DNA from: Arachidicoccus rhizosphaerae
GTDB lineage: Bacteria > Bacteroidota > Bacteroidia > Chitinophagales > Chitinophagaceae
DNA: 64,000 nucleotides
Assembly (NCBI RefSeq): GCF_900107765.1
Contig: NZ_FNQY01000006.1
Span: forward strand, 124,001-188,000
Direction: 5' to 3'
The position numbers were made by a program, and so were the translations under genes. Below the pieces are notes generated by a model. The model saw only the letters and a list, made by a program, of their open reading frames with translations. It made no database searches and was not told where the DNA came from. This document shows, in pieces, positions 9,742 to 21,873 of the stretch (the stretch's first letter is position 1; each line of letters opens with the position of its first letter).

Positions 9742-11163
9742 TTAAAAGAGATCCTTCAGACATCTAAGTGCTGCGTGATATCCACACATGCCATGAACCC
9801 CACCTCCGGGAGGAGTAGAAGATGAGCATAAATAAACTCCCTTAGCCGAGGTTCTATAAGGAGATAGGCTAAGTACTGGACGAGTGTATAATTGTCGAAT
9901 GTCCAAAATCCCCCCATTAATATCCCCTCCAACATAATTGGGGTTATAAAGCTCCAGTTGTTGTGCGTTAATGGTATTACGTTGGATTATGGTATTTTTG
10001 AATCCCGGAGCATATCTTTCTATTTGGTTCTCAATTATTTCTGTTTGGTCAATAGTAGATCCGTTTGGAACATGACAGTATGCCCATGCAATATGTTTTC
10101 CTTCTGGGGCGCGTGATTTGTCGTACAGGGTGGGCTGACTCAATAAAACGAAAGGTGTCGTAGGATTGATTCCCCTGGAAGTATTTAATTCACTGGTAGC
10201 TATTTCTTCAAATGTGCTTCCAAGATGAACTGTTCCTGCCTTTTGACAGTCCTGATTTTTAAAAGCGATAGGTTCATTGAGTGCCCAATCCATTTTAAAG
10301 ACCCCCATTCCATAACGGAAATGCTGTAATTGCCGTGTGTATGAAGATGATAAACGAAGATCTTTTAAATTGAGTAATTGTTTCGGCGTGAGATCTAATA
10401 ATATTGCTTTAGATGTGGGTAATTGTTCTATTGATTCAATGAAATTTCCAGTTTCGATTCTGCCTCCTATTGTTTTAAAATACGCTCCTAATGCATTCGC
10501 CATATTTTGCGACCCACCTTTTATTATGGGCCAGCCATATAAATGAGAAGCAGTCATTAACACTAAGCCTATTGCGGAAGAGGCAATATTGGATAAAGGC
10601 TGAATAGAGTGGGCTGCCATGCCGGCCCAAAGTCCTCGTGCTTCATCCGTTTTAAATCGATTTGCCAGAAAAGTTGCCGGCATTATAGCCAGCTTCCCAA
10701 ATTTCGCCATTGAAATTGGCTTTTTCGGGAAATGTAGCGGGCCTAAGGCATCTTCTATGACTTCTGGCCAAATTTCTAATAGCGGGCTTATAAGGGATTT
10801 ATATTTTTTGCCATCTCTGCCTAGAGAGTCTGCTGTTCTATCAATTGAGTGATGAAGTATTGCAGCCTTGCCAGTATCTAACGGGTGAGCCGCATCTATT
10901 TCTGGATATATGAACTGTACTCCAAGTTGATCAAAAGGTATAGTTTTAAAAAAGGGGGAGCTAATAGCCATCGGATGAACTGCTGAACAAATATCATGTT
11001 GATACCCTGGTGCTGTAATTTCAGCAGTTCTCATTCCTCCTCCGACAGTATTTTTACCTTCAATTAATAAGACAGATAGCCCATTCCTTTGTAGCGTAAT
11101 AGCAGCTGCCAAGCCATTTGGCCCCGAACCAATGACAATTGCATCGTAATTTTTATTAGACAT
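9742..11163 (-). CDS. FAD-dependent NAD(P)-type oxidoreductase of the phytoene desaturase-like family
   Basis: A 473-residue flavoprotein. The N-terminus carries a textbook FAD Rossmann motif (IVIGSGPNGLAAA, residues 10-22) followed by LLIEGKNTVGGGMRT, which is the CrtI/PYROXD2-type FAD site. The C-terminus has the second FAD contact (VYLCSSSTPPGGGVHGM). No carotenoid genes are nearby, so a carotenoid role is unlikely; the substrate is unknown. The gene is the last of a four-gene leftward unit; its start lies 3 bases after the stop of the TIGR01777 gene. Codons are much more AT-rich than in the flanking loci. Confidence 0.85.
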   Translation of the reverse strand: MSNKNYDAIVIGSGPNGLAAAITLQRNGLSVLLIEGKNTVGGGMRTAEITAPGYQHDICSAVHPMAISSPFFKTIPFDQLGVQFIYPEIDAAHPLDTGKAAILHHSIDRTADSLGRDGKKYKSLISPLLEIWPEVIEDALGPLHFPKKPISMAKFGKLAIMPATFLANRFKTDEARGLWAGMAAHSIQPLSNIASSAIGLVLMTASHLYGWPIIKGGSQNMANALGAYFKTIGGRIETGNFIESIEQLPTSKAILLDLTPKQLLNLKDLRLSSSYTRQLQHFRYGMGVFKMDWALNEPIAFKNQDCQKAGTVHLGSTFEEIATSELNTSRGINPTTPFVLLSQPTLYDKSRAPEGKHIAWAYCHVPNGSTIDQTEIIENQIERYAPGFKNTIIQRNTINAQQLELYNPNYVGGDINGGILDIRQLYTRPVLSLSPYRTSAKGVYLCSSSTPPGGGVHGMCGYHAALRCLKDLF

Positions 11164-11166
11164 TAT

Positions 11167-12090
11167 TTATTGCTTTGAAGAATGTAGTAAGTTTGAAAGA
11201 GCAGATTGAATATCTGGATATTTGAATTTGAAATTAATGTTTTGTAAATAATCAGAACTGACTCTTCTACCTCTTAATATTAGTTCTGGCTGTGTTCCGT
11301 TGAGGAAAAGACCGATTTTTGCCATAATTGGTGGCGTATTCAAATAATAAGGGTGTTTGATTAGTTTACGTAATGCTTGCATAAATTCCTTATTCTTAAT
11401 TGGGTTAGGTGAAGTGCAATTAATAGCTCCCTGAAAATTATCCTGGTAAATGGCTAACTTGAGAATATTAATAAAATCTTCCTCATGAATCCAGGAGAAG
11501 TACTGTTCTCCACTTCCAATATTTCCACCAAATCCCAATTTTATTAATTTTGAAAAAGGTTGTAACAGACCTATGTCTTTTTGTAAAACAACACCTAATC
11601 TCAGTATAACTCTTTTAGTATTTGGCGTCTGGTGTTTGAAGTATTCTTGTTCCCACTTTCTGCAAACATCAGCAGAAAAACCTTCACCGGGGTTTTCTGC
11701 TTCATTTGTTATAAATTTATCTGAATAGCCAAAAAGGGCAATTGAGCTAGCATTTATCCATACTTTTGGTGGATTCTTTGTTTTTTGAATTCCCTCTGCT
11801 AAAACGTTTGTCGCATCAACTCTTGAAGATAGTATCAGTTTTTTATTTTTAGGAGTGTAGCGGCAGTTAACGGACTTGCCAGTGAGGTTAATAATTGCTT
11901 TTGCTGATTCAAGAACTCTTGCCCAGTCTCCTAAGTTTTTGCTATCCCAATGTATATAATTTATTTTATTTATTATTCGACTTGGGCCTCTAGTCAGTAT
12001 TGTTAGTGATTCACCTTCCTTTTGTAGATATTTAACAATGGTTTGTCCTAGAAATCCAGATCCTCCTGCTATTATTATTTGATTACTCAT
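11167..12090 (-). CDS. TIGR01777-family NAD(P)-binding epimerase-like protein (SDR, YfcH type)
   Basis: A 307-residue atypical short-chain dehydrogenase. The glycine-rich dinucleotide motif IIIAGGSGFLGQTIVKYL is at residues 5-22. Other family marks are INLTGKSVNCRYT, SSRVDATNVLAEGI, and the C-terminal DUF1731-like tail (GRRVSSDYLQNINFKFKYP). No enzymatic reaction is firmly established for the family. Its ATG overlaps the end of the upstream cysteine protein by 8 bases, showing tight coupling within the leftward unit. Confidence 0.88.
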   Translation of the reverse strand: MSNQIIIAGGSGFLGQTIVKYLQKEGESLTILTRGPSRIINKINYIHWDSKNLGDWARVLESAKAIINLTGKSVNCRYTPKNKKLILSSRVDATNVLAEGIQKTKNPPKVWINASSIALFGYSDKFITNEAENPGEGFSADVCRKWEQEYFKHQTPNTKRVILRLGVVLQKDIGLLQPFSKLIKLGFGGNIGSGEQYFSWIHEEDFINILKLAIYQDNFQGAINCTSPNPIKNKEFMQALRKLIKHPYYLNTPPIMAKIGLFLNGTQPELILRGRRVSSDYLQNINFKFKYPDIQSALSNLLHSSKQ

Positions 12091-12337
12091 CGTTGATTAT
12101 ATTAGTTGGATTTTGATTGGAAGTATAATGAATACAACTATCATAAATTGAGAGATATCGATTTATTTTACTACATATCCCATCCTGATGCCTAACAGAG
12201 GCATATCCTGAACTCAGTGTTGTTATGCCATTAAATTGTGACTCCACTAAATGTGGATGATTATTAAAGTACTTACATGTTCGGCATTGTTCTTTAGGAG
12301 TTGCTTTGGATGTCTGTATATATTTTAAAATCTTCAT
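12083..12337 (-). CDS. small cysteine-containing protein of unknown function
   Basis: An 84-residue soluble protein that I do not recognise. It has a CRTCKYF motif near the N-terminus and two later cysteines (DGICSKINRY and YDSCIHY), so four Cys in a CxxC...C...C pattern that could bind zinc or an Fe-S cluster. No signal peptide or membrane helix is seen. The ATG at 12337 is chosen because it follows the exporter stop by 4 bases; an upstream in-frame ATG at 12382 would overlap the exporter by 41 bases. Position between YeiH-like exporter and TIGR01777 protein implies cotranscription. Confidence 0.7.
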   Translation of the reverse strand: MKILKYIQTSKATPKEQCRTCKYFNNHPHLVESQFNGITTLSSGYASVRHQDGICSKINRYLSIYDSCIHYTSNQNPTNIINDE

Positions 12338-12341
12338 CTTA

Positions 12342-13736
12342 TTAATTTGTTGTAATGTTAGTCCAGTAATGACCAAAAACACCTACAGATAATATATAGC
12401 CTAAAATCAGGTTTACGATAACCCCAATTGTAAAGGCAATGAATGGCTTGATTCCTGCTTTTGCTAATTCTTTAAACCTTGTAGTTAATCCAATGCTGAG
12501 AAAGCTAAAAGTAAAAGCCCATGTTCTTAATGAAGTGATAGGTGTTATTAATGCAGGTTTAACCACAGTGTTATATTCCGCCAAAGAATTCCCTTGTACT
12601 ATTAAAGAAGTAAGGATAGATGCGATTAAAAACCCTAGAACGAATTTTGGGAATCTCCACCAGATTTGACCAATTTGAACTTTGGAATTTGTTTCGTTTC
12701 TTTCCCAAATTGTAACAGATATAAGTGCTAAAATAAAAGACCAAATGCCAATCCAAATATCCCGACCTATTACTTTTATTAAAGTATATGCGGCAAGTGC
12801 TTGATCCGTTGTTCCTGTAATTGCCGGATGAGTTGCTGCAAGACCTCCGTATGATTGTGCAGCTGCTAGACCCGCGGCATCTGCAAATTCGGATGTGCCA
12901 ATCCATGCTCCTGCAATACCAGTAGGCAAATTCAATAATCTGGCAATAAACGGGAGGACAAAAATGATAATAATTGCCCACAAAACCACAAGACTGATAG
13001 CGATTGGAGGGTGCTCTTTTTTTGCACGTACAGCACCTGCTACAGCTATTGAAGCGGAAACTCCGCAAACTGCGCCTCCTGTACCAAGTACAGCGGCAAG
13101 TCTTCTGTCAAGCCCTAGTTTTTTTGCAGTAAAGAATATTGTTAGAAAGGTAACGATTGAAACAATTGAAGCTTGCAGTATGGCTATTGGCCCTCCCCAA
13201 ATGATTAAAGTAAACGGTAAAGTTGCTCCTAACAATACTATGCCCAATTTAATATAGAACTCTACCCTGAAACCTGCGTCTAGCCATTTTGGGAGACCTA
13301 TTATATTTGATATGAATAATCCTAATGCTAATGCTAGTAGCGGAGGCTCTAAATTATATTTATTAGCTTGATCCCAACTACCTATAATATAAATAATTAA
13401 AGACAATACGAAAATAAACAGGAATGACTTTAAAAATGCCTTTGGTTTTTGACCAATAAAGGAAGTGACTATTGTGAAAAGTAGTGCTAGTCCGATAAAT
13501 AAAGCAATATATCTTAAGCCATTTTCTGACAGCTGATTTGCAAGATCAGAAGGCGTACTCCATTTACCAGGAGCCACAGCAATCCAGGAGATACTCGAAC
13601 CTGCGATGTAAAAAGCGTAAGCAATAAAAACAATACCTAAACCTAACCAAACTGCCCACCAATCTTCTTTTGATAGTAATTCCTTGAAAAGGGAGGTGTT
13701 GCTCCCTCCCAACGGTTGGATATGACTTGATTCCAT
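12342..13736 (-). CDS. YeiH/UPF0324-family putative sulfate exporter
   Basis: A 464-residue polytopic membrane protein of the YeiH family (Cons_hypoth698), with about ten or more hydrophobic helices. Family segments seen: LALALGLFISNIIGLP, GAVCGVSASIAVAGAVRAKK and SLRTWAFTFSFLSIGLTTRF. Homologues are annotated as putative sulfate exporters from association with sulfur-metabolism genes; the substrate is not proven. The ATG at 13736 is chosen because an upstream in-frame ATG at 13805 lies inside the -7 promoter element. The gene heads the leftward unit and is transcribed from a promoter overlapped by a 23-bp dyad. Confidence 0.85.
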   Translation of the reverse strand: MESSHIQPLGGSNTSLFKELLSKEDWWAVWLGLGIVFIAYAFYIAGSSISWIAVAPGKWSTPSDLANQLSENGLRYIALFIGLALLFTIVTSFIGQKPKAFLKSFLFIFVLSLIIYIIGSWDQANKYNLEPPLLALALGLFISNIIGLPKWLDAGFRVEFYIKLGIVLLGATLPFTLIIWGGPIAILQASIVSIVTFLTIFFTAKKLGLDRRLAAVLGTGGAVCGVSASIAVAGAVRAKKEHPPIAISLVVLWAIIIIFVLPFIARLLNLPTGIAGAWIGTSEFADAAGLAAAQSYGGLAATHPAITGTTDQALAAYTLIKVIGRDIWIGIWSFILALISVTIWERNETNSKVQIGQIWWRFPKFVLGFLIASILTSLIVQGNSLAEYNTVVKPALITPITSLRTWAFTFSFLSIGLTTRFKELAKAGIKPFIAFTIGVIVNLILGYILSVGVFGHYWTNITTN

Positions 13737-13802
13737 AAAATAATAGTAATTTAAATTGAAAAAATGCAAGAAACGATAAAGCGAGTCGATGATGTTGTTA
13801 AG

Positions 13803-13833
13803 CAAATGTATTAATCCATTATTAATCTACCAA
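13803..13833 (-). promoter_or_regulatory. promoter of the leftward unit (TTG-N20-TACATTTG)
   Basis: Read on the minus strand, a -33 TTG (13833-13831), a 20-base spacer and an exact -7 TACATTTG (13810-13803) match the Bacteroidota sigma-ABfr consensus. Transcription should begin near 13796, about 60 bases before the exporter ATG. Confidence 0.75.
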
Positions 13834-13845
13834 AATAGTAGACTA
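13823..13845. promoter_or_regulatory. 23-bp dyad operator candidate over the leftward -33 element
   Basis: The minus strand reads TAGTCTA, a 9-base centre, then TAGATTA; it is an imperfect palindrome. It agrees at 18 of 23 positions with the dyad at 14029-14051 and covers the -33 TTG in the same register, which is the arrangement of a repressor site. Confidence 0.7.
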
Positions 13846-14028
13846 GTAATTTTAATAGAAGGCGGCTTGTTTTTAAATTATTCTCTTTGCTTGAGTTGTT
13901 AGGGGATTATTTGATTTTGAGGAACAAAAAAATATTAGGAAATGAAGATTACAATAAATTTAATATGAATGCTTTAGGGTAGTTTACTAACTTTTGTATG
14001 TAAAAATTTAAAAAAAATAAAAAAATAA

Positions 14029-14051
14029 TAGTCTATAAAATTGGTAGACTA
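14029..14051. promoter_or_regulatory. 23-bp dyad operator candidate over the rightward -33 element
   Basis: TAGTCTA, a 9-base centre, then TAGACTA: the outer 7-base arms are perfect inverted repeats. The -33 TTG at 14041-14043 lies inside it. It is the partner of the site at 13823-13845. Confidence 0.72.
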
Positions 14052-14070
14052 ATAATTTCAATTATTTTTG
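14041..14070 (+). promoter_or_regulatory. promoter of the susC/susD/DoxX-like unit (TTG-N19-TATTTTTG)
   Basis: A -33 TTG (14041-14043), 19-base spacer and exact TAnnTTTG (14063-14070). Transcription is predicted near 14077, giving an unusually long leader of about 310 bases before the susC ATG. Confidence 0.75.
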
Positions 14071-14076
14071 CAATCA

Positions 14077-14388
14077 AGAAATCATAATAAGATGTTGGGT
14101 GGAGTTGTTAGTTTAAATTTTTTAGGATTACAAGCTGGAGGAAAGGTAGCTTGTTGTAGCAGTTTGTAAATATCCAACACGGACCTTTTATCTGTGTCCA
14201 TATTCCAAAATTCTAAATACTTTCAATATGGTATTGCGCTTCTCTTGCCCGTTAGGGCAATAAACTATTCATAAAATTGCCGGAACTGTTGACGCAGTTC
14301 CGGCATGAAAACAATTAAGGCTGTCGCTAAACAAACAATCCCGAGTAATCGAGACTGTGACCTTTTTATATGTTAACAAACAAAATTA
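14077..14388 (+). other. long structured 5' leader of susC
   Basis: No coding region is evident. Two perfect hairpins are visible: TTGCCC-GTTA-GGGCAA at 14245-14260, and an 11-bp stem with a 6-base loop at 14278-14305 (TGCCGGAACTG pairing with CAGTTCCGGCA). Neither is followed by a T-run on the plus strand, so they are not classical terminators. I could not match the leader to a riboswitch class I know. Confidence 0.45.
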
Positions 14389-17300
14389 ATGAAAAATTTT
14401 CTGTTGGGAACATTTTTAACGTTCCTACTTCTTTTCCCTTATTTTATTAAGGCTCAGAATAAAAATGAGCCTCAACTCCATATCAATTCTATATTGAATG
14501 GTAAAATAATTGACCAACGGACAAAATTGCCAATTGAAGGAGCAACAATACAAATTAAGGGTATAACACATAGTGTACTCTCGGATAAAAAAGGGGAGTT
14601 CAGTTTTAAAACTGGCCAAACGCTTCCATATACCTTGATCATATCATATGTAGGTTATGATACGGTAGAGGTAGTTGCAGAAAAATCTCCTTTAGTCGTC
14701 AAATTAAATGAATCTGCTAATCAGTTAAATGATATTGTTGTTGTAGGGTATGGTACACAAAAAAAAATTGCGATTGTCGGGTCTATTGCGACAGTTAAAG
14801 CAGATGAAACTAAGAGTATTCCTGTAGCAAGTTTAGATGCCCAATTGCAAGGAAAGGCGGCTGGGGTACAAATCAATTCTCAATCTGGGACTCCAGGGGA
14901 AGGTGTAAGAATTAGAGTCAGGGGGTCGACCTCTATTAATGCAAGTAATGATCCACTTTACATAGTTGATGGAGTATTTATAAACAGTAACTCATTGGCA
15001 AATGCAGATGCTACTACTGCTAGCGGAAAAGCCGGCCCAATGAATTTAGGGCAAAAGCAAACTTCTGCAATAGCCGACATAAGTCCCTCTGATATTGAAA
15101 GTATTCAAGTATTAAAGGATGCAGAGGCAACCGCAATTTATGGATCACGAGGCGCTAATGGTGTAGTAATAATTACGACGAAGCATTCAAATCGAGAAGG
15201 AAAAGCAAAGGTTGTTGCTAATGTCTCGGAGGGATTTGCAAAGGTGCAAAAAGGTAAGTTATGGGATGTGGCAACGGGGGAAGAATATGCTACTATCGTA
15301 AATGAGACATGGATTAATTCGGGTATTGACAAACCATCATTGTCTCAAACCGAAGAAAATGTTCCATTTCAAAGAGCACCAGATGGATCATGGTATCCGG
15401 GAAATAATACTTATCGTGGAAATCCATCAGATCAACAAAGTTATACACCAATTAGGCTTAATCAAGTTTTTAGAACAGGCTCCTTGCATAGCTATGATTT
15501 AGCTGTACTTGGAGGCTCCAAAATAACTAATTATTACGTAGGAGCGTCTTATAATAAACAAGATGCAACTATTAAGCCCGCAGATTTTAGTAGGATTAGT
15601 TTAAAAGCGAATCTGAAATCAAAAATAAGTGAATCTGTTTCATTAGGATTAAATAATTTATTTTCAAGAACATATAGAAACCAATTGAGAGACGGAAATG
15701 GCCCTGAGGCTGGAATTTTTCAATCTGCACTTCAAACTCCAACATATTTGCCTGTAAGTGATTCTAGCGGGAATCCACTGCGATGGGCAAGTTTTGATAA
15801 TACTGAAGTTCTTGTCAATAACCCTGCGCAATGGACAAGCAGTTTAAGATATATCGGAAATGTTTATTTAGATATTCAGCTACTTCCCAATTTATTGTTT
15901 CATAGTTCGTTTGGAATCGATTATAATAATTATCGTGAATCTGAATATTACAATACCAAAACTTTAATAGGTTCTTCGACCCAAGGGGAAGCAAAAAATA
16001 ATTTAATCCACAATTCTTCTTGGGTTAATGAACAAACGTTGTCATTTAATAACACTTTAGGAGATAAAGGTAATATAAGTTTCCTTATTGGTAATACTCT
16101 TCAAAAGAATCAATGGGATGCAAATTATTTAGCTGGAACAGGATTTCCAAGTGATGCATATAAATTAATATCGTCTGCTTCAAATATTACAGGTGGGCAA
16201 GATGAATCAAAAAACTCTTTAGCTTCCTTTTTTTCAAGGGTGAGTTACAATTATGATAGAAAATATTATTTAGAGGCGACGGCAAGAGCAGATGGTTCTT
16301 CTAAGTTTGGAAGGAATCACAAATGGGGATACTTCCCAGCCATTGGAGCAAGTTGGGTAGTTAAAAATGAGGAGTTTTTGCATGATTTTGATGGAATCTC
16401 TACCTTAAAATTAAGGGCATCTTATGGGATAACTGGTAATTCGAATGGAATAAATGATTATGCTTCGCAGGGGTTGTGGACAGGGAGTGCAAGTTATCCG
16501 AATTCGCCATCTAGTGGCGACTATGCTGGTACTGCTCCTTTGCAATTAGCGAATCCTGATTTGAAATGGGAAAACACTGCTCAATTTAATTTGGGCGTTG
16601 ATATGGGGTTATATAATGACCGTATTAATTTGACTTTAGATCTATATTCGAAGTTAACAAATAATGCACTGTTGAATTTACCAGTTCCATCTTCGACAGG
16701 CTATACATCACAATTGTCAAATGCAGGCAGAATAAGTAATAAAGGTTATGAATTAGGTATTTCAACTATTAATATCAAAACCAAGGATTTTGAATGGACT
16801 ACTAATTTCAATATATCTGGCAATTATAATAAGATTCTTAGATTGGAAACTCCAATTACATTTTATAGTCGTGATTGGTTAATTGATGCAGAAGGCCACC
16901 CTATGTACTCTTTTTGGTTATATAAACAGTTATATGTTGATTCAAAGACAGGAAATGCAGTTTTTCAGACCGCAGATGGAAAAACTTCTTATAGCGACAC
17001 ATATAATCCAAATGTGACTTTGACAAATGATGATAGGGTTATAATGGGGAATGCTATGCCTGATTTTTTTGGAGGAATAACTAATAATATAAATTATAAA
17101 AGATTCGATTTTAATTTGTTTGTTTCATATCAGTATGGAAATGATATAATTAATTACAACCGATTTTTAGGGAATAAGCAAGGACAGGCCCCAACATTTG
17201 CAAATAGATTTATAACTAAAGATCAATTAAATAGATGGACGACTCCAGGTCAAATAACAGATGTTCCAAGGGTGACCAGTGTAGGTAATAATTATTTAGT

Positions 17301-17577
17301 TGAACAAAATAGCAGATTTTTAGAGGACGGATCCTTTATTAGATTGAAATCACTCACCATTGGTTATACATTTCCAGAAAGTGTAACTACTAAAATCAAA
17401 TTAGATAAAGTGAGATTCTATATTCAAGGTACGAATCTTTTGCTTTTGACAAAATATTCTGGACCAGATCCAGAGATAAGTGTAAGTCAGGGATACAACG
17501 GGAATGCACCAGGATTGGATCAAGGAACTCCTCCTCAGCCAAGAAGTATCCAATTTGGATTAAATGTTACTTTTTAA
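14389..17577 (+). CDS. SusC/RagA TonB-linked outer membrane protein
   Basis: A 1062-residue SusC-type transporter. Signal peptide to about residue 23 (FIKAQN), CarboxypepD_reg-like domain at about 35-110, the SusC signature VVVGYGTQKKIAIVGSI, plug domain with PLYIVDGVFIN and YGSRGANGVVIITTK, then the barrel ending in FGLNVTF. There is no STN domain, fitting control by the dyad-operator promoter rather than by an ECF/FecR pair. AT-rich codon use sets it apart from the SusC at 1488. It is the first gene of a unit with susD and two DoxX-like proteins, so the cargo may not be a glycan. Confidence 0.94.
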   Translation: MKNFLLGTFLTFLLLFPYFIKAQNKNEPQLHINSILNGKIIDQRTKLPIEGATIQIKGITHSVLSDKKGEFSFKTGQTLPYTLIISYVGYDTVEVVAEKSPLVVKLNESANQLNDIVVVGYGTQKKIAIVGSIATVKADETKSIPVASLDAQLQGKAAGVQINSQSGTPGEGVRIRVRGSTSINASNDPLYIVDGVFINSNSLANADATTASGKAGPMNLGQKQTSAIADISPSDIESIQVLKDAEATAIYGSRGANGVVIITTKHSNREGKAKVVANVSEGFAKVQKGKLWDVATGEEYATIVNETWINSGIDKPSLSQTEENVPFQRAPDGSWYPGNNTYRGNPSDQQSYTPIRLNQVFRTGSLHSYDLAVLGGSKITNYYVGASYNKQDATIKPADFSRISLKANLKSKISESVSLGLNNLFSRTYRNQLRDGNGPEAGIFQSALQTPTYLPVSDSSGNPLRWASFDNTEVLVNNPAQWTSSLRYIGNVYLDIQLLPNLLFHSSFGIDYNNYRESEYYNTKTLIGSSTQGEAKNNLIHNSSWVNEQTLSFNNTLGDKGNISFLIGNTLQKNQWDANYLAGTGFPSDAYKLISSASNITGGQDESKNSLASFFSRVSYNYDRKYYLEATARADGSSKFGRNHKWGYFPAIGASWVVKNEEFLHDFDGISTLKLRASYGITGNSNGINDYASQGLWTGSASYPNSPSSGDYAGTAPLQLANPDLKWENTAQFNLGVDMGLYNDRINLTLDLYSKLTNNALLNLPVPSSTGYTSQLSNAGRISNKGYELGISTINIKTKDFEWTTNFNISGNYNKILRLETPITFYSRDWLIDAEGHPMYSFWLYKQLYVDSKTGNAVFQTADGKTSYSDTYNPNVTLTNDDRVIMGNAMPDFFGGITNNINYKRFDFNLFVSYQYGNDIINYNRFLGNKQGQAPTFANRFITKDQLNRWTTPGQITDVPRVTSVGNNYLVEQNSRFLEDGSFIRLKSLTIGYTFPESVTTKIKLDKVRFYIQGTNLLLLTKYSGPDPEISVSQGYNGNAPGLDQGTPPQPRSIQFGLNVTF

Positions 17578-17587
17578 ATTATTATAT

Positions 17588-18925
17588 ATGTATTATTCAA
17601 AAAATAAAATTCGTAATTATTTAAGGTTTATTATAGTTTTTACTTTAGCCATTTATACAAGTTCTTGTAATAAATTTTTAGCCATTACTCCTACAAACGC
17701 TGTTTCAGATCAAATTGCTATAACTGATAGTGCTTCAGCCTCAAATGCACTAAGGGGTAATTATAGGACATTAGCTGATGGTTTGTCTAGTTTTTATTTT
17801 GATGTTTTGCTGTCTGGGAATGATATTTTATATACTCAATCATCGGCGTATTCTTTGCAATTTTTATATCACACGCTGACATCAGATAATGATGATTTGG
17901 GAACGATCTGGGCAAATGAATATGCCGTTATTAATCAAGCTAATTTTATATTATCCAAGGTTCCTGATCTTCAGAATATTTCGGATAAATATAAAAGCCA
18001 GATTCTTGGAGAAGCCTATTTTTTAAGAGGAATTGCTTATTTTAATTTGGCCCGAACTTTTGGAAATGTCCAATTATTCCTTAAACCTACGCTCGAAGTT
18101 TCAGATAAGTATGGCGTTTCACAAAGCCCTAAAGATGAGGTTTTGAATCAGGTTTTGAATGACTTGAATGACGCGATTTCATTGTTGCCAGATGTTTTGA
18201 ATCGAAATAGGGCAACTAAAAAATCTGCGATTGCACTCAGATCTAGGCTTTTTCTTTATCTAGATAATTGGGATGCTGCTGAGAAGGATGCTAGCTCTGT
18301 CATAAGTGATTCTTCTAATTATAAGTTGGTCTATCCCTACAGTTTGTTTTATACTTCTTCGGATAATTCTGAAATAATTTTTGAAGCTTCTTATAGCCTT
18401 AATTATCCAAATGGGATGTACAGTGGTTGGAAATCTGGGGGTAATTATAGACCTAATGACTCTATTATTAGTCTTTTAAATGATCCTGAAGTTGGAGGAT
18501 CAAGGAAAAGTTTATTGACAAAATCAGGGAATACAATCTTAGGAAATTTATATCCATCTAGTAATGGAACAGATCCTATCCCATTAATAAGAGTAGCTGA
18601 GTTGTTTCTAATTAGGGCTGAAGCTAGAGCACATTTGGGTAATTATGTTGGTGCTTTTTCAGATTTGAATAAGGTTCGAAGCAGAGCAGATCTTCCTAAT
18701 ATAGCTGTATCTAATAATAGTATAATATATGATTATTTAGAAAAAGAGGGCAGAGTTGAATTTGCATTAGAGCCATATAGATGGTTCAATCTAGTTAGAA
18801 CAGGAAGAGCTGCATCTGTCTTGAATGTTTCCGAAGCATTCCGTTATTTATTCCCTATTCCTACTTCTGAAATACAGGCTGATAAATCCCTGATTCAGAA
18901 TCCAGGATATTCGAGTTCTAATTAA
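17588..18925 (+). CDS. SusD/RagB-family outer membrane lipoprotein
   Basis: A 445-residue SusD-type substrate-binding lipoprotein. The lipobox Cys lies in YTSSCNKFLAI. SusD features: YFLRGIAYFNLARTFGNVQLF, repeated helical hairpins, IRVAELFLIRAEARAHLG, and the closing FPIPTSEIQAD...NPGY typical of the family. The ATG at 17588, 10 bases after the susC stop, is chosen over the ATG at 17564, which would overlap susC and precede the signal peptide with extra hydrophobic residues. It acts with the SusC upstream. Confidence 0.93.
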   Translation: MYYSKNKIRNYLRFIIVFTLAIYTSSCNKFLAITPTNAVSDQIAITDSASASNALRGNYRTLADGLSSFYFDVLLSGNDILYTQSSAYSLQFLYHTLTSDNDDLGTIWANEYAVINQANFILSKVPDLQNISDKYKSQILGEAYFLRGIAYFNLARTFGNVQLFLKPTLEVSDKYGVSQSPKDEVLNQVLNDLNDAISLLPDVLNRNRATKKSAIALRSRLFLYLDNWDAAEKDASSVISDSSNYKLVYPYSLFYTSSDNSEIIFEASYSLNYPNGMYSGWKSGGNYRPNDSIISLLNDPEVGGSRKSLLTKSGNTILGNLYPSSNGTDPIPLIRVAELFLIRAEARAHLGNYVGAFSDLNKVRSRADLPNIAVSNNSIIYDYLEKEGRVEFALEPYRWFNLVRTGRAASVLNVSEAFRYLFPIPTSEIQADKSLIQNPGYSSSN

Positions 18926-18949
18926 TTTTTTTAAGATAAATTGACTTTT

Positions 18950-20374
18950 ATGTCTTTAAATGGTAGATTTTTGAAAAAAGGTAATAAGATAGGTTCAATT
19001 AACAGCCTATTATACGGTGTTGTTCAAGATGACTTTTCTTTTCCGATTTGGAAAAGTTGGGAACAACGTGCTTTTCAGTTTTTCTTTATTTTTTTATTAT
19101 TATTGACTCTTCCTATTGATTTCAGATTTTATAAATTATTATTTTCCATTGATTGGTTACATATTAATTTTTATTCAATTTTTCAAATTGTTCGGTATCA
19201 GACTCAGTTTTTGCCAATTATTTATCTGCCAAAGTGGGGTATAGGAAGTTTTGGAAATTGGGGAGTAGCTGCGATAGTTGCCTTTATTTTATCTCAAGTC
19301 TGGTGGCATTATTCATCTAATTATTTGAAGAATTATACTGCTTTAAATTATTGGTTAAGAGTCATTTTAAGATATAGACTTGCGTCTCTATTAATTGTAT
19401 ATGGTTTTATAAAGGTTTTTCCTATCCAAATGCCTTTTCCTTCCTTAAGTAATCTGGTGACTAATTATGGTGACTTTTATGCTTGGAAAATTTATTTTCA
19501 AACATTGGGGATAAGTCCTAAGTATGAATCATTTTTGGGATTTATTGAAATTTTTGCTGCAATTTTATTGATAAACAGAAAGACAGCCACTTTTGGTACC
19601 GGTTTGTTGATTGGTTTCTTGGGAAATGTTGCTGTAGCCAATGGCTTTTATGATATTGGTGAACACGTGCTTAGCACCTACATAGTTTTATTATCTGTAT
19701 TTCTTTTTGCTTATGACATTCCTAGATTATATAATTATTTTATTAAAGATGATAAAGAGACTATTGCAGATCGTTTTAAACCTGACTTTTCCGAAAAGAA
19801 ATTGTCTAGAATAAGACTTTTTTTAAAATTTGGTTTTATAGCCTTTATTTTATTGTATGGAATTTTGACTCAACATAGTTTTGCAATTGAGTCTTATAAA
19901 TTGCCTAAAGAACAAGGGTTACATGGTGCTTATGGATATTATGATGTGACCAATTTTGTGCTTAATCATGATACGATAAATTATTCCTTTTCTGATCCTC
20001 ATAGATGGGTTGATGTTGTTTTTGAAAAATGGTCAACCATTTCAATTCGAGATAACCGACCTGTAATTGTTGATAAAACAAGTGGTGAAGGGTATTACGA
20101 TAAGGATATTGATAGAAATTATGAATTAGCTGGAAATGGCGGTCGTCATTATTATTATTATACAATTGATTCGACTCGAAGATTGTTATTCCTGCAAAAT
20201 AAGAATCGTGCTAAACGGTTTGATAAGTTCACGTTACACTACACATTTATTAATGATTCCACTTTAGCACTGGATGGTTCTTTAGATAATTCTGATTCAG
20301 CTTTTATTGTGCTCAGAAAAAAGAAACTAGACTTTCTAATGTTTGAAGGTCGACGTCACCCTGTTAAAAATTGA
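18950..20374 (+). CDS. DoxX-like integral membrane protein with C-terminal extracytoplasmic domain (copy 1)
   Basis: A 474-residue membrane protein. The first 300 residues hold several hydrophobic helices with DoxX-like features: RYRLASLLIVYGFIKVFP, FLGFIEIFAAILLINRKTAT, NVAVANGFYDIG. After the last helix (about 290-305) comes a soluble region of about 165 residues, rich in aromatic and charged residues, ending in an RRHPVKN tail. It is a clear paralogue of the next gene. ATG 18950 is preferred to the TTG at 18941. DoxX relatives join electron-transfer or thiol-sulfur redox complexes, but this long form has no assigned role that I know. Confidence 0.7.
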   Translation: MSLNGRFLKKGNKIGSINSLLYGVVQDDFSFPIWKSWEQRAFQFFFIFLLLLTLPIDFRFYKLLFSIDWLHINFYSIFQIVRYQTQFLPIIYLPKWGIGSFGNWGVAAIVAFILSQVWWHYSSNYLKNYTALNYWLRVILRYRLASLLIVYGFIKVFPIQMPFPSLSNLVTNYGDFYAWKIYFQTLGISPKYESFLGFIEIFAAILLINRKTATFGTGLLIGFLGNVAVANGFYDIGEHVLSTYIVLLSVFLFAYDIPRLYNYFIKDDKETIADRFKPDFSEKKLSRIRLFLKFGFIAFILLYGILTQHSFAIESYKLPKEQGLHGAYGYYDVTNFVLNHDTINYSFSDPHRWVDVVFEKWSTISIRDNRPVIVDKTSGEGYYDKDIDRNYELAGNGGRHYYYYTIDSTRRLLFLQNKNRAKRFDKFTLHYTFINDSTLALDGSLDNSDSAFIVLRKKKLDFLMFEGRRHPVKN

Positions 20375-20397
20375 TAAAATTAAAATTATTTAATACT

Positions 20398-21873
20398 ATG
20401 GAATTAACATTGAAATTTAATAAGCTTCATGAAGATGTTCAAGAGTTAGGTGCTAATGCGTGGACTAAAACAAAATTGTTTGCCTTTAGAGTCATTTTTG
20501 TTTATATTTTACTTTTGTGCATTCCCACTTATTCTGGATTTTACACGGGAATATTTAAATTAAAATTAAGTCAAATTACATATAATGATCTTCAGTCAAT
20601 TGTCGCTTTTTGGCCTCCTCAATTTATTACAATTCAAAGTGAAGAGGGAGTTTTTGGGTTACTAAATTATATTAATTTAATTTTAGCTTTATTAATTGCT
20701 TTTGGTGCAGCTGGTATTTGGACTGGTCTAGACAGAAAAACTCTTTCTTATAATAAGCTATATTATTGGATTAGAGTGTTAGCTAGATATAGACTTGCTT
20801 ATGGAATGATTGGCTGGGGTTTAAAAAAGATTTTTCCAATGCAAATGGTGTGGCCAACCATCGGGATGTTGAATACACATTTTGTAGATATGGTTGAGAA
20901 AAAGCTATATTGGTCACATGTAGGTGTTGAATTTTGGTATACTGTATTTTTAGGATTTGCTGAGTTTATTCCTGGAATTCTTCTGCTCTTTAGGAAAACA
21001 GCCACTTTGGGTGCTGCATTAGCTGCAGTTGTTACTTTTAATATTTGCATTGCCAATCATGCTTATGATGCGGGGGTAGCTGTTCCTGCTGCTTATTTTG
21101 CTATTATTGGTTTATTTTTAACTTCTTATGATTTGCCAAATATTTGGAAATTGTTAGTTAAACAGGAAAATGTAAAACCATTTCATTTTTATCCAACATT
21201 TACTAAGTCACAGAAATGGATTAGATTTTGGGTCAAATTTGTTTTCAATTTGATCTTTGTGCCGATTTCTGTTTTTTTATGGGGATATGGCTTCTTTAAT
21301 GGGAATAATTATAATATTCCAAGTACGCCTGGCTTGTCTGATACGAAAGGTTATTATAATGTGTCATTATTTAAATTAAACGGGAAGATTCTTCCATTTA
21401 ATCCTAATGATTCTATTCGATGGTCCGATGCTACGTTTGAAGCGTGGTCTTCATTAAGTTATAGAACTAATAGGTCTGCTTATATTGACAGGATGATTGG
21501 TTATTCCCCACTTAGGGTGAAAGGAAAGAAAAATAGGAAATTGAATCAACCAGATACACAGATTGCAGATTGGTTTGCTAGAGCCAATAAAAACAGAGAT
21601 TTAGGTGTTACTCGTTGGGAAGTTGGTGGGATGGCTGGCGAAAGAAGATATTTTTTTTATAATGCGGATACTTTAAAACATGTTCTGTATTTGCAGAATA
21701 AGAATGTTAATGCTAGAGATGAACGTCAAGTATTAAATTATTCTTTATCAAAAAATAGGATTATTCTTTGGGGAATTAATGAATTTAATGATTCTATTTA
21801 TGTGGTTTTGGATAAGTCCTTGAAGATCTATCCCTTAGCTGAAGGAAGACAAAGTGTTCGATCTGAATTTTAA
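20398..21873 (+). CDS. DoxX-like integral membrane protein with C-terminal extracytoplasmic domain (copy 2)
   Basis: A 491-residue paralogue of the previous gene with the same layout: membrane part with YWIRVLARYRLAYGMIGWGL, KKIFPMQM, GFAEFIPGILLLFRKTATLG, NICIANHAYDAG and SYDLPNIW, then a helix near 295-315 and a soluble C-terminal domain with YFFYNADTLKHVLYLQNKN. Copy 1 has the matching RRLLFLQNKNRAKRF. ATG 20398 is chosen; a TTG at 20371 overlaps the previous stop codon and is less likely. Two adjacent paralogues suggest a heterodimer. It is the last gene of the rightward unit. Confidence 0.7.
   Translation: MELTLKFNKLHEDVQELGANAWTKTKLFAFRVIFVYILLLCIPTYSGFYTGIFKLKLSQITYNDLQSIVAFWPPQFITIQSEEGVFGLLNYINLILALLIAFGAAGIWTGLDRKTLSYNKLYYWIRVLARYRLAYGMIGWGLKKIFPMQMVWPTIGMLNTHFVDMVEKKLYWSHVGVEFWYTVFLGFAEFIPGILLLFRKTATLGAALAAVVTFNICIANHAYDAGVAVPAAYFAIIGLFLTSYDLPNIWKLLVKQENVKPFHFYPTFTKSQKWIRFWVKFVFNLIFVPISVFLWGYGFFNGNNYNIPSTPGLSDTKGYYNVSLFKLNGKILPFNPNDSIRWSDATFEAWSSLSYRTNRSAYIDRMIGYSPLRVKGKKNRKLNQPDTQIADWFARANKNRDLGVTRWEVGGMAGERRYFFYNADTLKHVLYLQNKNVNARDERQVLNYSLSKNRIILWGINEFNDSIYVVLDKSLKIYPLAEGRQSVRSEF

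Follow-up and report, generated by a model that had tools for sequence, protein, structure and literature searches.

Palindromic sites at two divergent promoters of Arachidicoccus rhizosphaerae as candidate operators of a sulfur-supply regulon

Introduction

Does a transporter of the YeiH family answer to the same regulator as the SusC/SusD pair from which it is divergently transcribed in Arachidicoccus rhizosphaerae, and if so, to which regulator and to what signal? The question arises from a stretch of 64,000 nucleotides of contig NZ_FNQY01000006.1 (hereafter the window, whose numbering is used throughout), for which a first-pass annotation, made from the sequence alone, noted that the two promoters share a 23-bp dyad and predicted one dimeric repressor acting in trans. 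We find that a palindromic motif of 23-25 bp is present at both divergent promoters, at sulfur-related and SusC/SusD promoters and at several orthologous promoters. On comparative sequence evidence, these sites probably serve a single dimeric regulator of sulfur supply as operators; it would act in trans, and we infer it to be a four-cysteine Rrf2 protein encoded elsewhere in the genome, on contig C23.

Results and Discussion

Two divergent operons and their promoters

The operon on the minus strand begins with the YeiH family transporter (12342-13736; above the PF03601 and below the TIGR00698 cut-off), the start of which was taken as the ATG at 13736, the open reading frame as listed beginning with TTG at 13805. 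There follow a 99-aa cysteine-containing protein without a family match (12083-12382), a TIGR01777 family oxidoreductase (11167-12090) and an FAD-dependent oxidoreductase (9742-11163), which is 57% identical to the product of the gene that comes after two membrane-protein genes in a related locus, L129. On the plus strand, a SusC/RagA TonB-linked outer membrane protein (14389-17577) and a SusD family protein (17564-18925) precede membrane proteins 1 (18941-20374) and 2 (20371-21873), which are without family matches and have homologues after susD in the same five of eight related loci. The label "DoxX-like", given earlier to these two proteins, did not hold: no Pfam match was obtained at E 5 and no NCBIfam match at E 0.01. 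In Salmonella, YeiH is reported to confer sulfite resistance (PMC12880088).

The operator-like dyads lie at 13823-13845 on the minus strand (TAGTCTACTATTTTGGTAGATTA, over the -33 region of the yeiH promoter) and at 14029-14051 on the plus strand (TAGTCTATAAAATTGGTAGACTA, over that of the susC promoter), both assigned by direct reading, motif scans and the consensus described below. They match each other at 18 of 23 positions, and in each the -33 TTG occupies bases 13-15. Promoters of Bacteroidota are of the -33/-7 type, and by this type we assign as -7 elements the perfect TAnnTTTG sequences that follow after a spacer of 20 bases on the yeiH side (13803-13810, minus strand, TACATTTG) and 19 bases on the susC side (14063-14070, plus strand, TATTTTTG). 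Agreement, positions, placement of the TTG and spacing to the -7 element are thus exactly as first described when read directly from the DNA. The further contention that such a pair is hard to explain by chance also stands: among 3000 randomised sequences matched in dinucleotide composition to the 649-bp region 13740-14388, four held a comparable pair of 23-mers (arms palindromic at >=6 of 7 positions, agreement at >=18 positions), and sites are also kept at orthologous promoters. A loose pattern, TAGTCTA-N9-TAGACTA with up to three mismatches, was not enriched in the window (2 occurrences, 1.85 expected) and in the whole genome was found at 101 places, below the 502 of its reversed control; the dyads are judged real because a refined core, AGTCTACTANNNTAGTAGACT, is enriched over the reversed control.

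Recurrence of the motif in the genome

The consensus of 13 sites from the same genome is TTAGTCTACTAAATTAGTAGACTAA, and 38 sites from relatives (at most two mismatches, in the stretches fetched) give an identical one, with 11-base arms flanking one central base. Scanning the genome (4.87 Mb, 54 contigs) with the core AGTCTACTANNNTAGTAGACT gave 9 places at up to two mismatches, against 0 for the reversed control, and 12 against 6 at up to three; the yeiH-side site of the window departs from the core at two positions and the susC-side site at three. All nine places are intergenic, while open reading frames make up about 84% of the 244 kb of this genome that was sampled. Two precede a DUF2490-PstS-like-PstC-PstA operon (L017:6997-11671), the pst-like genes of which match phosphate-transporter families, one precedes bioB, and three stand one each before the susC gene of SusC/SusD operons on contigs C15, C27 and C33, the last of these operons having no evident sulfur role. 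Two more are flanked by a weakly AhpC-like gene on one side and, on the other, by an open reading frame that by eye is ftsZ-like, and the remaining one is the yeiH-side site of the window.

Among the weaker matches listed are sites before a cysH-cysD-cysN-cobA-cysJ-cysI operon, metB (a cystathionine gamma-synthase-like gene), serA/pckA and a peroxiredoxin gene. The weak sites at cysH, metB and serA prove little alone, the search level at which they appear not being enriched overall; those at cysH and metB are backed by relatives, that at serA stands without further support. When 14 sites were read on both strands, 11 of the 28 readings had a perfect TAnnTTTG in the next 30 bases downstream; 0.90 would be expected, and none of 3000 shuffles reached 11.

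Four other weak matches in this genome were inspected and left out of the site set. L008 falls inside an open reading frame, and neither L010 nor L013 is beside a clear sulfur gene. The fourth, with two mismatches to the loose pattern (L011:1501-1523), lies upstream of an open reading frame that looks, by eye, like thioredoxin reductase and may be an additional target.

Conservation in relatives

In 79 genomes including that of A. rhizosphaerae, sites with at most two mismatches occur at 45 places (8 in the control; 36 without its own), distributed over 18 genomes. Open reading frames of relatives came from a mechanical call and took their names from BLAST matches among 44 labelled proteins of the A. 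rhizosphaerae genome, some labels (FtsZ, MetH, PstB, FecR, ECF) being assigned by eye; this procedure missed short or overlapping genes, e.g. the Rrf2 gene of locus L267. Within the genus, genomes G002 and G004 keep sites at the pst-like operon (two each) and at the susC operon corresponding to that on C27, G002 keeps the bioB site, and G004 has the metB site and a site that persists at the bioB position without bioB beside it. In other genera, sites among the loci listed lie by genes for sulfite reductase, siroheme synthase/TauE, cysD/cysN, peroxiredoxin and TonB receptors, and also by genes without an evident sulfur role (L081, L082, L084-L086, L105).

Of 34 cysH loci found, 30 were examined over 1.56 kb each, and 11 carry a site at up to four mismatches (0 for the reversed motif). 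In nine of these the site is at most 300 bases upstream of the match and in one it is far upstream; in the other (L022:6428-6448) it falls inside the gene, and was discounted as a probable coincidence of coding sequence. The cysH site is identical across G000, G002 and G004. The check proposed at first was whether the motif recurs over other promoters and whether a sulfur-assimilation set carries it; the recurrence is borne out in this genome and its relatives, with the cysH operon and metB (weak sites) here and further sulfur genes there making up the set.

Orthologues of the window's susC gene (E 1e-200 or better) were found in eight other genomes of the 119 searched, the source genome included, and all eight belong to other genera. 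Seven of the eight have a site at up to four mismatches within 600 bp upstream, against an expectation of 0.0155; at the eighth, L117, none was found over the same distance and at the same threshold. Locus L115 has a YeiH homologue by a SusC gene with a site. In L129 (genome G026) a site is followed in turn by susC, susD and the genes of membrane proteins 1 and 2, of the FAD oxidoreductase (57% identity) and of YeiH (30%), and no TIGR01777 or 99-aa gene was seen in this gene run. Here a single operon behind a single site unites genes from both operons of the window, and the two halves of the window therefore belong together, which supports the common control of the yeiH and susC sides that had been suggested.

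Across a phylum sample of 247 genomes the exact motif was found at 11 places outside the source genome against 36 for the reversed control, and a phylum-wide regulon with this exact motif was rejected on this count. Beyond the order there are only hints (six places against two reversed in genus g109, two against none in G234). Two copies of a variant dyad, AGTCCACTAATTTAGTGGACT, are present in G234, a member of the same class, at C94:424020 and C96:909809.

A four-cysteine Rrf2 protein as candidate regulator

The genome holds three Rrf2 genes above the family cut-off, on contigs C23, C11 and C43. In Arachidicoccus ginsenosidivorans the C11-type gene is in two pieces with stops (G002:C1:4609351-4609784). 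The best candidate for the regulator is encoded at C23:69596-69997, minus strand (134 aa), and belongs to the Rrf2 superfamily by PF02082 (122.6 bits, cut-off 30) and TIGR00738 (118.3 bits, cut-off 73.3); its closest named relative is that of A. ginsenosidivorans (99%). A regulator acting in trans had been predicted, and the location of this gene agrees with that. The proposed check of whether a regulator gene, for example of the Rrf2 family, itself carries the site gave a negative result: no site occurs at up to five mismatches in the 14 kb around the C23 gene.

The protein has cysteines at positions 91, 100, 103 and 108, spaced C-X8-C-X2-C-X4-C and invariant in all 30 homologues compared and in the 24 rows of alignment A1, some of which come from the same genomes; homologues in L076 and L080 have one extra residue before the last cysteine. 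These four invariant cysteines make Fe-S or metal binding possible. The model of its A. ginsenosidivorans counterpart (99% identity; pLDDT 82.1 overall, but below 50 for residues 92-99 of the cysteine region) has the winged helix and long C-terminal helix of the fold. CymR was the top match of the model in the PDB, and of 37 matches with E no higher than 0.001, 34 bear CymR, IscR, NsrR, RsrR or Rrf2 in their titles, the other three (3lwf, 3k69, 1xd7) being titled only as putative regulators or DNA-binding proteins. The C23 protein scored below the equivalog cut-offs for CymR (NF047409, 67.5 of 195 bits), IscR (TIGR02010, 74.6 of 207.55), NsrR (NF008240, 43.1 of 182) and RirA (NF008886, 60.5 of 193).

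The association of this protein with the sites comes from gene neighbourhoods and from co-occurrence. Homologues adjoin a cysH or peroxiredoxin gene in 8 of 30 loci, lie inside cys operons in L262-L264 and, by coordinates, L267, and stand by DUF2490/PstS-like genes in 6 of 16 loci (L266, L268-L271, L276); in L266, two weak sites (three and four mismatches) lie between the Rrf2 homologue and the DUF2490/PstS-like genes. The cys- and pst-linked copies are mostly more distant homologues (45-53% identity), and among the best 80 of 242 orthologues, from named genomes, only five are found with cys genes and six with a peroxiredoxin gene. Of the 45 genomes that encode the protein (E 1e-30 or better), 17 have sites at up to two mismatches, as against 1 of the 34 that lack it (p=1.4e-4 with relatedness ignored; within the family p=0.0125). 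The test was made for the C23 and C11 proteins.

It could be argued that the sites are operators of a sulfur regulon but are bound by some other protein, possibly not of the Rrf2 family. The C23 gene lies in a site-free neighbourhood, genome G027 has sites and no C23-type protein, and 28 of the 45 genomes that encode the protein lack any site at up to two mismatches, including three from the genus itself. We nevertheless hold this alternative to be unlikely, given the co-occurrence above, the recurrence of C23 homologues in or beside cys and pst-like operons, some of them with sites, and the geometry of the dyad, the 11-base arms and single central base of which may be set beside the NsrR structure 7b0c, titled with a 23-bp operator. 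In PMC5015018, inverted 11-bp repeats are described as typical of full-length Rrf2 sites, the gap there being 3 bp.

If the C23 protein is the regulator, its binding, its repression and its signal may be pictured as follows. When sulfur is plentiful, the dimer would cover the -33 region and block RNA polymerase, and in sulfur shortage it would leave the DNA; repression by occlusion is favoured because both dyads cover the -33 element. The SusC/SusD pair and the two membrane proteins would then import a sulfur compound, and YeiH with the oxidoreductases would handle this compound or the sulfite made from it. The invariance of the four cysteines suggests that the signal might be sensed by an Fe-S cluster or by way of a thiol/persulfide state. 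The same regulator might instead activate both promoters, and RsrR, an Rrf2 protein, is described in PMC5015018 as likely both activator and repressor; with both dyads seated on the -33 element, however, activation appears quite improbable.

The C11 Rrf2 protein is a very improbable regulator of these sites. On contig C11 its gene has metB, a MetH-like open reading frame (by eye) and a weak site in its vicinity, but adjoins a COX1-family gene and is broken in G002, where sites persist, and its distribution shows no association with the sites (10 of 35 genomes with the protein, 8 of 44 without, p=0.20; p=0.17 without G024, which at 2.7e-30 falls just past the cut); it was rejected on these three grounds. 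Chance similarity of the two dyads, for which the lack of enrichment of the loose pattern in window and genome might speak, can be dismissed in view of the enrichment of the refined core, the occurrence of such pairs in four of 3000 random sequences, the cysH sites and the conservation at orthologous susC promoters that contradicts it.

Comparison with known systems

The predicted regulon is CymR-like in kind. CymR, the Rrf2 regulator of cysteine metabolism in Firmicutes, partners with CysK. With the C23 candidate it has in common the Rrf2 fold, as judged from the model, and, by inference, the control of cysteine and sulfur supply; sites do lie before cysteine and sulfur assimilation genes, i.e. 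the cysH operon and metB here and cysD-cysN, sulfite reductase and siroheme/TauE genes in relatives. The candidate differs from CymR in falling below the CymR family cut-off, in its four invariant cysteines, in its phylum and in that the candidate regulon includes sites before SusC/SusD operons. The Fe-S regulators IscR, RirA, NsrR and RsrR are of the same superfamily, and the cysteines of the C23 protein lie in its C-terminal half, presumably as do the ligands of those proteins; the 23-bp operator of the NsrR structure title matches the dyads of the window in length. Unlike them, the protein has the C-X8-C-X2-C-X4-C spacing and targets that include sulfur genes, and it falls below the cut-offs for IscR, RirA and NsrR, there being no RsrR model among the matches. 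In the YeiE-YeiH system of Salmonella a YeiH family gene is likewise under a sulfur-linked regulator, which is of LysR type with an adjacent gene (PMC12880088), whereas here the palindrome is common to other operons and the candidate gene lies elsewhere.

SusC/SusD pairs are usually thought of as glycan importers. The operator provides a handle on SusC/SusD transport that is otherwise unassigned, pairs under it being candidate importers of sulfur sources, and together with the regulator and the gene list it offers a testable scheme of sulfur control in this lineage. Two sites of the regulon lie at the DUF2490 and PstS/PstC/PstA-like operon (L017; also L096, L099 and L266), so this ABC transporter may take a sulfur compound as its substrate in place of phosphate. 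A wider and more tentative picture, of which we are less than convinced, is that the Chitinophagaceae respond to sulfur starvation with a regulon whose sensor is a four-cysteine Rrf2 protein; within it, several SusC/SusD pairs would import organosulfur compounds, a PstSCA-like ABC transporter would serve sulfur and not phosphate, and a hairpin in the susC leader would add a second, RNA-level control. Among the literature matches listed, mostly open access, there was no Rrf2-type sulfur regulator of Bacteroidota, which is weak evidence, and those on SusC with sulfonate and on YeiH likewise included no such regulator.

A hairpin in the susC leader

The long leader of susC contains a hairpin (14279-14304, plus strand) that recurs before susC-type genes in other genera and is possibly a new RNA element. 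Its inner part, CTGTTGACGCAG-like, is conserved, its GC-rich outer stem varies, and AAGGC follows. None of nine weak matches to known RNA families at the locus reached the gathering score. The 312-base leader (14077-14388) folds better than shuffles (z -2.34; -1.6 by another shuffle), and leaders of the orthologues are not consistently better folded than theirs (z -1.75 to +0.42). At up to two mismatches the hairpin pattern is present in 7 of 196 genomes, with 0 for the reversed control among the matches listed (loci in relatives: L291, L292, L293, L294, L295). The hairpin of G011 has no long open reading frame behind it, and that of G390 stands before another SusC-like start (by eye), without the operator. 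The other five (G000, G038, G366, G014 and G397, the last two from one genus) precede a SusC-like start with the operator upstream.
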